Source: Candidatus Saccharimonadota bacterium (lineage in GTDB: Bacteria; Patescibacteriota; Saccharimonadia; Saccharimonadales; Saccharimonadaceae). From it: DNA of 64,000 nucleotides. The notes below the pieces were generated by a model. It was not told the DNA's origin. It was given only the letters and a program-made list of their open reading frames with translations, and searched no databases. Every line of letters begins with the position of its first letter. Position 1 is the stretch's first letter. The stretch is from positions 186,001-250,000 of the forward strand of contig JAFVBJ010000003.1 of the NCBI GenBank assembly GCA_017480035.1. Reading direction: 5' to 3'. Of the stretch, positions 3,981 to 42,346 are shown one piece after another. Position numbers and translations under genes: made by a program.

Positions 3981-5426
3981 ATTAAGCGCGATACTGGCAT
4001 CGTTTTTAGGGTGGCATTGGTTATCGGTGATATCATCGCAATTGTCACCTCTTTTCTTTATGCTTATCTTATTCGCACACATCTCGATTCTCGTCCTTAT
4101 TATTTCGTCGCCAATCCCGGCAAATTTCTCCTTGCTATCATGGCGCTTCTCCCGGTCTGGATTTTCATCCTTTTCGCCTTCGGTCTCTATTCAAAACGCA
4201 TTTTGATGGATCGTTCGCGCCTCCCTGAAATCTGGCGTCTCGCTGTCGCTAGCATCGTCGGTGTCATGGCTATTATCACGGTCGATTTTTTCCTCGACAG
4301 CAATCTTTTTCCGGTCCGCCCCATCGCACTCTATGCTATTCTGACAAATTTCCTCTCGCTCGTCCTGATTCGCAGCATTATCAAATACATCCGAAAACGC
4401 ATCCTCAGAAAGAAAATCGGTCTCCAGAAAGTCCTCATTATCGGCAATGACCCCTCGACCTCACGTCTCATCAGTAATATCGTTGGCTTCCCAGAGGAAG
4501 GCTATCGCCTCGTCGGCGTCGTTTCGCGCGTCGGACTTATCCCGAAAGACTTCCGCCATCTCCGTTTCAGCTCCCTAAAACAAGCTCTCGCCCGCACGAA
4601 GCCCGACGTCATCTTCCAAACTGACGAAAAATCGACCGAATATGTCTATCGCCAGTCCATCGAACGTCATATTCTTTATTATTCTGTCCCAACCGAATCA
4701 ACTCTTTCTCAAAACATGGGCGAGCTCGAACTCATCGGCACGACCCCTGTTATTCTCGTTAAAGCCACCCCTCTCATCGGCAGTTCAAAAGCCGTCAAAC
4801 GCACTATCGACCTCATAATCGGTGGCCTCATCTTCATCTTCGCACTGATTCCGATGGTACTCATCTATCTCGCCCAAAAACTCACTAGCCCAAAATCTCC
4901 AGCATTTTATTCTCAAATCCGCCTCACTCGCTATAATAAACGCGTCAAAATCTATAAATTTCGCTCAATGAAACCCGAATACTCCGGCCTTACCCCCGAA
5001 GACGCCTTCAAAAAGATGAAAAAACAGGGAATTATAAAAGACGCAAAAAAATATATCAACGAATATCGCAAAAACGGTGATTATCTCGAAAACGACCCTC
5101 GTATCACGAAACTTGGTGATTTTCTCCGCAAATCTTCTCTTGATGAACTTCCGCAGCTTATCAACGTCCTAAAAGGCGACATTTCGCTCGTCGGCCCGCG
5201 CGCTCTCATTCCGAGTGACTTAAAAAATTATGGCGACCGCAGCTTACTTCTCTCTGTTAAATCCGGTCTGACCGGCCTTGCCCAAGTTTCCGGTCGTCGC
5301 GACATCAGCGTTTCCGAACGCCGCGCTCTCGACATCTATTACGTCCAAAACTGGTCAGTACGCTTCGATTTTCAAATTCTCTTTCGCACCATTAAAGCCG
5401 TCATCACAGGGAAGGGCGCTAAATGA
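3981..5426 (+). CDS. Polyprenyl-phosphate sugar phosphotransferase (WbaP/WcaJ type) that starts polysaccharide synthesis
   Basis: About 481 residues. There are four or five TM helices in the first 150 residues, a CoA-binding-like Rossmann segment (VLIIGNDPSTSRLI) near 160, then the catalytic bac_transf domain: a TM near 275, YKFRSMK, DPRITKLGDFLRKSSLDELPQL and SLVGPRAL. It loads the first sugar-1-phosphate onto undecaprenyl phosphate. The start is uncertain. An in-frame GTG at 3942 has no ribosome binding site, whereas a perfect AGGAGG at 3970-3975 sits 5 nt before an in-frame ATT at 3981 whose product begins near the expected family N-terminus. ATT is a rare start, so I choose it tentatively. 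It overlaps the next gene by 4 bases (ATGA). Confidence 0.85.
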   Translation: MKRDTGIVFRVALVIGDIIAIVTSFLYAYLIRTHLDSRPYYFVANPGKFLLAIMALLPVWIFILFAFGLYSKRILMDRSRLPEIWRLAVASIVGVMAIITVDFFLDSNLFPVRPIALYAILTNFLSLVLIRSIIKYIRKRILRKKIGLQKVLIIGNDPSTSRLISNIVGFPEEGYRLVGVVSRVGLIPKDFRHLRFSSLKQALARTKPDVIFQTDEKSTEYVYRQSIERHILYYSVPTESTLSQNMGELELIGTTPVILVKATPLIGSSKAVKRTIDLIIGGLIFIFALIPMVLIYLAQKLTSPKSPAFYSQIRLTRYNKRVKIYKFRSMKPEYSGLTPEDAFKKMKKQGIIKDAKKYINEYRKNGDYLENDPRITKLGDFLRKSSLDELPQLINVLKGDISLVGPRALIPSDLKNYGDRSLLLSVKSGLTGLAQVSGRRDISVSERRALDIYYVQNWSVRFDFQILFRTIKAVITGKGAK

Positions 5427-8290
5427 AAAACTTGAAAGTTGCCCTAGTTTGTGATTGGCTGACAGAAATTGGCGGCGCCGAGGAGGTCTTGCTTGAATTC
5501 CATAGATTATTCCCAGACGCTCCGATTTACACCTCAATTTATCGCAAAGGGAAGATCGACTGGTTTAAAAACACCGAAATAAAAACCGGTTGGCTAAATT
5601 TTCTCCCCGTTTGGTCTCGCCGTTTCGTCGCCCCGCTCCGCCAGAACTTCTTTAAAAACCTCGACCTTTCTGGCTATGACCTCGTCATTTCTGTTACCGG
5701 TTGCGACGCCAAATTCATCAAAACTGACGGCTTCCACCTCTGTTTTTGTCACATCCCAACTCAATATTATTGGGGTAAACGCGAAGAATATCTTAAAAAC
5801 CCTGGTTTTGGCGCTTTGAACCCGCTCGTCCGTAAAATCTACCAAAAACTTCTCCCAAAGCTCGCCGAAAAAGATTTCCTCGCCGCGAAAAATCCTGACG
5901 AATTTTTAACTGTCAGCAACTTTGCCAAACAGGAAATTAAGACCTATTATAAAAGGGAAGCAAAAGTCATTTCTCCCCCTGTTAATACAACCCTTTTCGC
6001 ACAAGCTGTGGATAACTACAAAACAAAAAGAGGGAAAAGTCAAGCGAAAATAACAACATATAACACAATGAAATCAAATAAAAATCAAGTCCAAAAATCC
6101 GAACAAAAGTTTTACACAAAACTCAAAACTGTGGAAAACTTAAGTATTTTGACGCAAATTATCGCAAAATACCCGGACGGCTTCTATTTGAACTTTTCTC
6201 GTCAAGTCAACTGGAAGCGTCTTGATCTCGTCGTCGAAGCGTTCAAAAACTTGAGACTTCCGCTAGTTTTGGTTGGAAACGGTCCCGAGACGAAACGTCT
6301 AAAAAAACTCGCACGCGGCGCAAATAATATCACTTTCGTCGATTTCCTACCGAAAAAAGATCTCGCGCTGCTTTCCTCTCTCGCCAAAGCTTTCATTTTT
6401 CCATCAAAAGAGCCTTTCGGTATCGCCCCAGTCGAAGCTCTCGCCGCAGGTTGCCCAGTCATCGCCTTTGAAGGTGGAGGCGCCCTAGATTTCATTAAAA
6501 ACGGCAAAAACGGCCTCTTTTTCGAGTCCCAAACCGTCAAATCGCTTGAAAAAGCTCTCTTAAAATTCGAGACCAGCAACGTTTCCCTCGACCCCTCGAA
6601 AAAAATCTCCGCCTCCGTCCAAAAATTCTCCACCAAAAACTTCGAAAAAAAGCTCAAGAACGAACTCCGCAAACTATCTTTACATTCTTCGGTGTCTCCG
6701 GAGGTCGTTATCGAGGGTGAGCCTGGCAAGCGATTTTTGCGTTCTTCGGGGCTTCCGGAGCTTGCTAGTGAGGATGAGGGGTCGAGCCCTAACAGCGACG
6801 AAGTGAAATTCACTTTTTGGGAACGTCCGCAGGTTACGACCGAGGATGAGCGCCGCTCCCCCGTAACGACGGGCGGAGCGGACGCGTGTCCCAAAAAGTT
6901 GAATTTCATTCGTCGCGGCTTGGTGCTCGCTCTCCCCCTCCTCCTCTTCCTCTCAAACTTCCCGCTCATAACCTTTGGCGACACAAACTCCATGCACCTC
7001 AAACTTTCCCTCCCGCTCCTCTGGCTCCTTCTCTTCTCTGTTATTTCCCTAAAATCCGTCCTTAAATATCTCAAATCCAACCTAAAAACCCCGCTTCTCG
7101 CCTTCCCTGTTTTTCTCATCTTCTCTGTCCTCATCTCCCCTGACAAACTCCGCTCCATCCTCACCGCTGGCGTCCTCATCTGTCTTTTTTTCTCTGTTAT
7201 CGGTCTCACTATCTACTTAAAAACCGAAAAACTTCCGAAAAACTTCAAAAAAACTATCATCATAGAAACGGTCGTCATCTGTTTCTTCTGTCTCGCCCAA
7301 TCTCTGTTCGACACCCTCGGCACCCCAGAAAGCCTCACTAAAATCTGCGAAACTTGCAGGACCACCATTTTTGGCTTCCCCCATCCAAACGGCTTTGCTA
7401 TCGAGCCTCAATTCATGGGCTCACTTCTCATCGCACCTCTGTTTCTCGCCTATAATTCCCTATTAGAAAATAAATCGAGAAAAAATCAAGGGAGGAACGT
7501 CTTTGCCATTCTTATCATCGAAACGACTCTATTTTTCACTTTTTCCCGCGGTGCCATCTATGCGACTATTCTCGCTCTCATTTTCCTCATTTTCACCCGA
7601 AAAAGCCTGAAAAAAGCCCTTAAAATCCTCCTGCTCTCGCTCAATTCATTCATTTTGAGCCTCTGTTTACAGGGGTCGCTCGCCGTCATTGGACCTACAA
7701 ACGCCTCTTTCATTCAAGCCGCCGAAACTGCCATTTCTCAACTAACTCTCGGCAGAATCGCTCCTAGCGCCGAAAAAGCCCAATCCGCCCCCGAAAATGA
7801 CGTTTTTGAAGAACCAGAGATTTTCTCCACCCCTGTTGAAAATTCCGAAAATTCCTCAAACACCCCAAATTTCAGCGGTTATGTCGCCGAATCGACCGAT
7901 CGCCGGCTCGAACTTGCGACTTTCGCTCTAAAAATCTCTCTTGAGAGCCCGAAAAACACTCTTTTTGGCACTGGGCTTGGTTCCAGCGGCCTCGAAATGT
8001 ACAATCACTTCCCCGAGCGTCAGGGCCACGCTAAAGAAATCGTCCAAAACGAATATCTCGCAATCTTTCTCGAACTCGGCCTAATCGGCTCTATCGCCTT
8101 TATTCTTTCCATTATTACATTCCTAAAACTCGAAAAATTTCACTTTGAGCCTTACACTGCCGCGATTCTGCTAGCTTTTGCTATTACTCTCCTATTTTTC
8201 TCTGGCCTCCCGAACGCTCTCCATATTTATCTCCTCCCTGTTTTATGCTACAATCTAATGTATGATAAAGATCGTCTTTCCAGAGTATAA
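5423..8290 (+). CDS. Fusion: family 4 glycosyltransferase joined to an O-antigen ligase/polymerase-type membrane domain
   Basis: 955 residues in three parts. Residues 1 to about 420 are a GT4-type GT-B transferase: VCDWLTEIGGAEEVLLEF at the start, LVGNGPETKRL in the middle and the donor-site motif FPSKEPFGIAPVEALAAGCPVIAFEGGG. Residues of about 425-490 are a charged linker encoded by palindromic repeats (separate entry). Residues of about 493-955 hold around ten TM helices with the Wzy/WaaL-family features FGFPHPNGFA and GTGLGSSG followed by NEYLAIFLELGLIG. The first part would add a sugar to the lipid-linked glycan, the second would polymerise or ligate it. Such activities are normally separate proteins; the junction by repeat DNA suggests two adjacent genes were fused. 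It overlaps its upstream partner by 4 bases. Confidence 0.85.
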   Translation: MKNLKVALVCDWLTEIGGAEEVLLEFHRLFPDAPIYTSIYRKGKIDWFKNTEIKTGWLNFLPVWSRRFVAPLRQNFFKNLDLSGYDLVISVTGCDAKFIKTDGFHLCFCHIPTQYYWGKREEYLKNPGFGALNPLVRKIYQKLLPKLAEKDFLAAKNPDEFLTVSNFAKQEIKTYYKREAKVISPPVNTTLFAQAVDNYKTKRGKSQAKITTYNTMKSNKNQVQKSEQKFYTKLKTVENLSILTQIIAKYPDGFYLNFSRQVNWKRLDLVVEAFKNLRLPLVLVGNGPETKRLKKLARGANNITFVDFLPKKDLALLSSLAKAFIFPSKEPFGIAPVEALAAGCPVIAFEGGGALDFIKNGKNGLFFESQTVKSLEKALLKFETSNVSLDPSKKISASVQKFSTKNFEKKLKNELRKLSLHSSVSPEVVIEGEPGKRFLRSSGLPELASEDEGSSPNSDEVKFTFWERPQVTTEDERRSPVTTGGADACPKKLNFIRRGLVLALPLLLFLSNFPLITFGDTNSMHLKLSLPLLWLLLFSVISLKSVLKYLKSNLKTPLLAFPVFLIFSVLISPDKLRSILTAGVLICLFFSVIGLTIYLKTEKLPKNFKKTIIIETVVICFFCLAQSLFDTLGTPESLTKICETCRTTIFGFPHPNGFAIEPQFMGSLLIAPLFLAYNSLLENKSRKNQGRNVFAILIIETTLFFTFSRGAIYATILALIFLIFTRKSLKKALKILLLSLNSFILSLCLQGSLAVIGPTNASFIQAAETAISQLTLGRIAPSAEKAQSAPENDVFEEPEIFSTPVENSENSSNTPNFSGYVAESTDRRLELATFALKISLESPKNTLFGTGLGSSGLEMYNHFPERQGHAKEIVQNEYLAIFLELGLIGSIAFILSIITFLKLEKFHFEPYTAAILLAFAITLLFFSGLPNALHIYLLPVLCYNLMYDKDRLSRV
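6690..6916 (+). repeat. Three in-frame copies of a palindromic repeat forming the linker of the fusion protein
   Basis: Three related cores begin at about 6705, 6759 and 6828 (form CCGgAGnTtn-n-GAGGaTGAG), spaced 54 and 69 bp apart, so all are read in the same frame as (S/L/R)P(E/Q)-x-x-x-E-D/G-E. The third lies in a long inverted repeat: arm 6795-6825 is nearly the reverse complement of 6886-6916, with inner pairs GTCCGC/GCGGAC and GTTACG/CGTAAC. The 23-base core at 6832-6854 is identical to 42261-42283 at the end of dus. Base composition is more GC-rich than the flanks. Confidence 0.75.
8246..8254 (+). promoter_or_regulatory. Extended -10 promoter of the phosphotransacetylase gene
   Basis: TGC-TACAAT inside the end of the upstream gene; it ends 7 nt before the ATG at 8262, predicting a leaderless transcript. 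Confidence 0.55.
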
Positions 8291-41300: not shown

Positions 41301-42278
41301 ATGTCAAACATCTGGACCATACTCGAAACTCCCTTCACTGTCCTCGCCCCCATGGAAGGCGTGACCGATTGCGTTTTTCGTGCCGTAATCGAAAAAGCCG
41401 GTCGCCCCGACCTCTTTTACACCGAATTTACAAACGTTTCTAGCTTCGCCTCCGAAAAAGGTCGTCACGACGCCCTCGAACGCTTAACTGTAAAAGAAAA
41501 AGACAAACCAATCATCGCTCAAATCTGGGGCAAAAACCCAGAACATTTCGGCAATCTCGCAAAAGAACTTGAGAGCATGGGCTTTTCCGGCCTCGATTTA
41601 AACTTTGGCTGCCCTGACCGCCATGTCAACAAAGCTGGCGGTGGCGCCGCGATGATAAAAACTCCCGACCTTGCCGTCGAATGCATCAAACAAGCAAAAG
41701 AAAACACGAATCTCCCTGTCTCTGTGAAGACTCGTCTCGGTTTTACCTATACGCACGAATATAAAGATTGGCTCAGCCTCCTCTTGAACCAAAACCTCGC
41801 CGCCCTGACCGTCCACCTTCGCACCCGCAAAGAGATGTCAAAAGTCCCCGCCCACTACGAACTTATCCCTGAAATCATCAAACTTCGAAACGAAATCGCC
41901 CCTGAAACAAAACTCATCATCAACGGCGACATTCGCGACAAAAACCACGTCAGAGAACTTCATGAAAAATACCCTGAGGTCGACGGCTTCATGATTGGCC
42001 GCGGCGTCTTCGCAAACCCATTTTGCTTTACCGATAAGATCCCGACAAAAGACGAACTCCTCGACCTCTTCAAATTTCACCTCGACAAATACGATGAGCA
42101 CGCAAAAGAAGTCGAGCGCTACCCCTTCGAACCCCTCAAACACTTCTATAAAGTATATATTAATTCTTTCGATGGCGCCTCCGATCTCCGCGTAAAGCTG
42201 ATGGATTGCAAAACTACCACGGAACTGAGAGATAAACTGTCTCACTTCGTGGCTTCCGGAGGTTACGACCGAGGATGA
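41301..42278 (+). CDS. dus: tRNA-dihydrouridine synthase
   Basis: 325 residues. LAPMEGVTDCVFRAVIEKAG begins the FMN-binding barrel; DLNFGCPDRHVNKAGGGAAM holds the catalytic Cys; then VSVKTRLGF, LTVHLRTRKEMSK (FMN/His region), LIINGDIRDKNH and DGFMIGRGVFANPF. It reduces uridines in the tRNA D loop using NADPH and FMN. The last residues (FVASGGYDRG) and the stop codon come from the palindromic repeat at 42204-42346, so the natural end of the gene may have been replaced. Confidence 0.94.
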   Translation: MSNIWTILETPFTVLAPMEGVTDCVFRAVIEKAGRPDLFYTEFTNVSSFASEKGRHDALERLTVKEKDKPIIAQIWGKNPEHFGNLAKELESMGFSGLDLNFGCPDRHVNKAGGGAAMIKTPDLAVECIKQAKENTNLPVSVKTRLGFTYTHEYKDWLSLLLNQNLAALTVHLRTRKEMSKVPAHYELIPEIIKLRNEIAPETKLIINGDIRDKNHVRELHEKYPEVDGFMIGRGVFANPFCFTDKIPTKDELLDLFKFHLDKYDEHAKEVERYPFEPLKHFYKVYINSFDGASDLRVKLMDCKTTTELRDKLSHFVASGGYDRG

Positions 42279-42346
42279 GCGCCGGAGCCCCGTGACGACG
42301 GGCGCGCAGGACGCGTCCACGAAGGAGACAGTCTATCTTGCAATCT
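42204..42346 (+). repeat. Palindromic repeat at the 3' end of dus
   Basis: Core GGTTACGACCGAGGATGAGC (extended to 42261-42283) is identical to 6832-6854. Outer arms are inverted copies of the neighbouring dus sequence: GATAAACTGTCTC...TTCGTGG (42231-42252) against CCACGAAGGAGACAGTCTATC (42317-42337), and GATTGCAA (42204-42211) against TTGCAATC (42338-42345). The right arm ends about 12 bp upstream of the rpsO promoter. There is no T-run, so it is not a simple terminator. Confidence 0.75.

Follow-up and report, generated by a model that had tools for sequence, protein, structure and literature searches.

The window, a stretch of 64,000 nucleotides from a Saccharibacteria-lineage genome of 772,806 bp, contains an open reading frame (ORF) in which two enzymes are joined by a linker built of palindromic repeats, raising the questions of what these repeats are and whether they made the fusion. 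The ORF was uninterrupted across all repeat copies, which were flanked by an N-terminal glycosyltransferase domain (Glycos_transf_1, E 9e-29, aa 254-386) and a C-terminal Wzy_C domain (E 1e-9, aa 695-894). The features of the locus were as follows.

5423-8290, + strand: fusion ORF of a GT4-type glycosyltransferase and a Wzy_C/O-antigen ligase, 955 aa (ORF call and domain matches).
6685-6721, + strand: partial copy 1, the left half of the core (76% identical to copy 2).
6740-6797, + strand: partial copy 2, inner hairpin largely missing (model match, 30.4 bits, E 7e-5).
6788-6822, + strand: left outer arm, a putative inverted copy of the right arm, encoding linker residues missing in relatives.
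6812-6899, + strand: full copy, branched hairpin (88-nt model match, 101.8 bits, E 1e-21).
6889-6923, + strand: right outer arm, putative host sequence opening the Wzy part (PKKLNFIRRG, at the point where that part begins in relatives).

The initial annotation had described three repeat cores in a single frame, one of them inside a long inverted repeat. Three related cores were present (6685-6721, 6742-6778, and 6814-6850), and they share one frame because their start-to-start spacings, 57 and 72 nt, are both multiples of 3; only the third (6812-6899) is complete, however, the others being partial copies. The inverted repeat was confirmed, its two outer arms being 74% complementary over 35 nt without gaps. 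The DNA fold of the 151 nt at 6780-6930 reached -54.4 kcal/mol (z = -10.6 relative to 200 dinucleotide-shuffled sequences). The copies within 6685-6923 were GC-rich, and the repeat is predicted to be translated as a hydrophilic linker.

The annotation had also reported that the core is shared with 42261-42283, and the shared segment proved to extend over 62 nt (42255-42316, 85% identical); for a 26-nt piece of the core, 0 chance matches were expected in the window. This segment belongs to a second full copy.

42241-42328, + strand: second full copy, at the 3' end of dus (model match, 98.3 bits).
41301-42278, + strand: dus, a tRNA-dihydrouridine synthase gene ending inside the element (TIGR00737, E 5e-44, below the TIGR00737 cut-off).

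The last codons of dus, encoding its C-terminal residues, and its TGA stop come from this copy, which lies just upstream of rpsO.

The core sought across the genome recurred at sites other than the second window copy, and a covariance model was built from five copies of the source genome. This model matched 158 of the 174 genomes of the genus, 47 of 295 genomes of the order, all from three genera of one family, and 7 of 380 genomes across the phylum, again confined to that single family. All named public records with the same core belong to Candidatus Saccharibacteria, and guts of goats, sheep, and buffalo are the source of many. No match to the core pattern was obtained outside Saccharibacteria when one genome per species was searched, the viral contigs searched yielded no copy, and the Rfam covariance models, at both thresholds, returned no matching family. 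The family thus appears to be confined to a single genus of Saccharibacteria and its two sister genera.

In an alignment of 89 distinct rows, 92.7% of the cells paired, 27 of the 33 pairs carried changes on both sides, and the covariation score was 0.438 versus 0.129 in shuffles. Pairing and covariation were far above those of shuffled and slid controls; the rows had been aligned to the model, which favours it, and the margin was nevertheless large. These findings make it very probable that the repeat is a lineage-specific dispersed palindromic element whose core of approximately 70 nt forms a conserved branched hairpin. Counted against this explanation was that no transposase or other enzyme of mobility was identified. 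A second core subfamily was present in the source genome in two copies (L216:1874-1964 and L217:1794-1888, GGACTCTTCGGAG...ACGAGCGAGAACAAG). In integron attC sites the outer part is conserved and the inside is variable; such a site was considered and dropped on general knowledge, the element showing the opposite layout.

Dropping copies with similar outer arms reduced 103 element matches to 56, of which 45 fell within ORFs of 200 aa or longer. Both orientations (25 antisense, 20 sense to the element) and several frames were represented; because related species share some insertions, these counts are not all independent events. By NCBIfam, the host genes encode TsaD, LepA, GatB, UvrB, Der, AlaRS, MnmA, TruB, IleRS, and TopA, and further copies lay in the genes for DnaX, a PcrA-like helicase, ValRS, and PolA. 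Alignments with solved homologues of TsaD, LepA, and UvrB continued to either side of the insert and lost few residues or none, whereas the stretch around the insert in GatB was unaligned. The tsaD gene is single-copy in the source genome, and empty sites were found in the nearest relatives for tsaD, lepA, GT-Wzy, and iscS-mnmA. Some copies were intergenic and terminator-like, as after rplA.

The simplest reading of the in-frame positions is that only in-frame events survived, and the open frames suggest that the insert peptides are translated. Gene-borne copies would survive only where frame and fold tolerate them, in domain linkers and loops. Since copies would persist only at such positions, the element would act as selfish DNA, close to neutral, and not as a functional module. 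A change from TGA to TTA in the lepA copy of the source genome was considered as selection for an open frame and rejected, TTA being common in other copies too.

In its outer 20-35 bp the hairpin was local to each site, one arm apparently being host coding sequence and the other its inverted copy. At four sites in the source genome an arm ran on into conserved host codons: in TsaD the right arm continues into FPLL, in GT-Wzy the right arm into the Wzy start, in IscS the left arm into EAAKDIL, and in LepA both flanks continue into host codons. Over the outer 20 nt, left and right arms matched at 80% within a copy versus 57% for mixed copies. The left host codons of lepA (37 loci, carrying various kinds of insert) scored a mean of 13.5 against their own right arm and 5.9 (sd 1.7) against the arms of other species. 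We considered whether the element brings its arms with it, their overlap with host codons having arisen later by drift. The innermost lower stem is fairly conserved (columns 12-14), as this would predict, but the left arms of different copies were no more alike over their outer 20 nt than mixed arms (57%), and the lepA arms mirrored the host codons of their own species, which makes carried arms improbable.

The strong covarying structure and the terminator-like intergenic copies would also suit a hairpin acting at the RNA level, as a self-removing intervening sequence, a ribosomal bypass element, or a regulatory RNA. Selection for an mRNA structure would give more G-U than A-C mismatches, yet the mRNA strand showed no G-U excess (24 G-U versus 37 A-C, based on about 60 transitions). 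The inserts also preserve the frame, the element occurs in genes in both orientations, one-sided changes were few compared with 465 two-sided cells, and Rfam gave no match, so that action as RNA is very unlikely. The element's own strand showed a weak G-T excess (60 versus 36, P 0.018), which was counted against the preferred explanation. It is most improbable, too, that the element prefers sites already palindromic, as some insertion sequences do in REP sites: site-specific arms would be expected, but empty lepA sites had a self-complementarity score of 5.5, like the 5.9 of mixed species, so the lepA site was not palindromic beforehand, and the arm opposite the conserved host codons was missing from empty tsaD, lepA, and GT-Wzy sites.

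The missing G-U excess points to a DNA-level process behind the arm symmetry. We favour, with less assurance than the dispersed element itself, a stem made at the site rather than carried. One arm would be the original host sequence and the opposite arm its inverted copy, and the copy may be produced and kept complementary by DNA-level copying, for example by template switching at the hairpin during replication. Template switching as proposed for coding palindromes of Nematomorpha (PMC6649704) is an example of a process that fits better than selection on RNA. Because the host arm differs between sites, a conversion that overwrites whichever arm is under less constraint is no less likely than copying during insertion itself.

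The interdomain linker of lepA (elongation factor 4) is an insertion hot spot. The 88 lepA loci compared comprised 29 with a short linker, 43 with a longer linker, and 16 split genes, counts from which frequencies are not readable because the loci are a non-random sample, many having been picked because the lepA hit came in pieces. The net extra length was divisible by 3 in all 43 longer linkers. Not every one of them is this element; the linker of one genome, G114, has two in-frame stops, and element remnants sought in it were none above background. In 16 genomes of the genus, lepA was split between the G domain and the rest.

L155-L166, L168-L170, and L213: split lepA loci (for example, in G100, L155:1208-1750, + strand, and L155:2435-3646, - strand).

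The split genes break in the interdomain linker, where other genomes carry inserts. Their halves are separated by 0.7-8.6 kb and, in G100, occupy opposite strands. In the N-terminal part a stop follows within a few codons of where the linker begins. Most C-terminal parts start from an ATG of their own, placed immediately ahead of TRALIF and close to a TATAAT-like box. Where this box lies a few bases before the ATG, as in the C-halves of L156, L157, and L160, it suggests leaderless transcripts. Some genomes are incomplete metagenome-assembled genomes; the split still recurs in many, with differing distances between the halves. On the tree, the split state required 9 changes, at least 4 of them forced by well supported branches, and the inserts required 20 changes, at least 6 forced. 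A split intein was considered and rejected, the split halves having no room for one. A different insert peptide, LEFLSTSYAG or its variant GFLSTSYAG, is shared by lepA linkers and a further protein gene (L188, L203, L186, and L102) and probably represents a further family of in-frame inserts.

That inserts cause the lepA splits is a guess, and inserts and splits may both simply reflect a tolerant linker. Tentatively, the element could be spread or maintained by a DNA process that inverts flanking host sequence into a stem arm, and turnover of inserts at tolerant sites such as this linker could lead to repeated core-gene fission; we regard this combined account as possible but somewhat doubtful.

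The initial annotation had proposed that the repeat created the fusion, and the comparison with relatives did not bear this out. In the 18 relatives examined first, the glycosyltransferase and Wzy parts were separate genes or, mostly, in different frames. One genome, G002, seemed fused by open-frame length and was rejected, its glycosyltransferase frame containing a stop. The nearest relatives, G060, G085, G178, and G179, were found via lepA, their lepA fragment being 84-88% identical. All four have one fused GT-Wzy ORF of 886-911 aa with a short, unrelated, non-palindromic linker, and the element sought at their GT-Wzy loci gave no match. Two separate genes thus characterise the more distant relatives and not the four closest. 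A comparable junction lies on contig 1 of the source genome, where an IscS-type cysteine desulfurase and MnmA form an 803-aa ORF (L216:647-3055) with the element at the junction, a fusion joining a sulfur donor to its acceptor enzyme; iscS-mnmA is also fused in G060, in which a search of the locus (L220) found no element.

The GT4-Wzy fusion appears older than the element because the four nearest relatives are fused with a short linker and lack it. The genomes compared thus indicate that the fusion predates the insert and that the element marks the linkers, having made neither the GT4-Wzy nor the iscS-mnmA fusion. That insertion of the element across the stop of one gene and the start of its neighbour did create the GT4-Wzy fusion can scarcely be credited: the element's position exactly at the junction and the separate genes or frames of the first 18 relatives speak for this, but the four nearest relatives and the same pattern at iscS-mnmA speak against it. 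The element would instead have inserted into the linker of an already fused protein.

Most known in-frame palindromes come from Rickettsia and Wolbachia, with a few cases elsewhere. The present elements, a rich family in a lineage of ultra-small episymbionts, come with about 150 sampled species and numerous empty sites for comparison. This brings within reach of direct tests the long-standing question of how in-frame insertion occurs and how the symmetry is maintained. Both the mirroring of host codons and the absent G-U signature favour a DNA-level mechanism; if the stem is indeed built from the entered gene, each insertion makes its own stem out of host sequence. Recurrent lepA fission at the insertion hot spot tentatively links the elements to the origin of split proteins. 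The literature searched yielded no description of such elements in Saccharibacteria, nor of split LepA, an absence that is weak evidence.

The closest known systems include the Rickettsia palindromic elements (RPEs), hairpin repeats of about 105-146 bp found between genes and in frame in conserved protein genes; a guanylate kinase that contains an RPE is both translated and active (PMC2229807). RPEs lose their repeat identity over time (PMC6649704). Like them, the present element is palindromic, measures roughly 100-150 bp, is dispersed within a single lineage, lies in frame in unrelated conserved protein genes, and is missing from the orthologues of relatives. Its recurrence in frame in many protein genes supports the annotation's view of an in-frame palindromic element resembling RPEs in a different lineage, the likeness being one of organisation. 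It differs in its Saccharibacteria lineage and may differ in its site-specific outer arms, which mirror host codons. Wolbachia and Methanocaldococcus jannaschii, other lineages again, carry stand-alone in-frame coding palindromes in housekeeping genes (cited in PMC2996958), and the likeness to them is by description. Bacterial MITEs and REP-type palindromes are short, dispersed, and palindromic and have no enzyme gene of their own (PMC10969869, PMC3733652). The element shares these properties, but many of its copies are intragenic and its termini vary; fixed terminal inverted repeats, as in MITEs, were not found, because copies differ from one another over the outer 20 nt (57% identity, the level of mixed arms). 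Nematomorpha have coding palindromes in mitochondrial genes, both arms of which can encode host protein and evolve in concert, for which template switching or repeat conversion has been proposed (PMC6649704). No dispersed conserved core is described for those palindromes, whereas the present element combines a dispersed core at the tip with an outer stem that appears to be host-derived.
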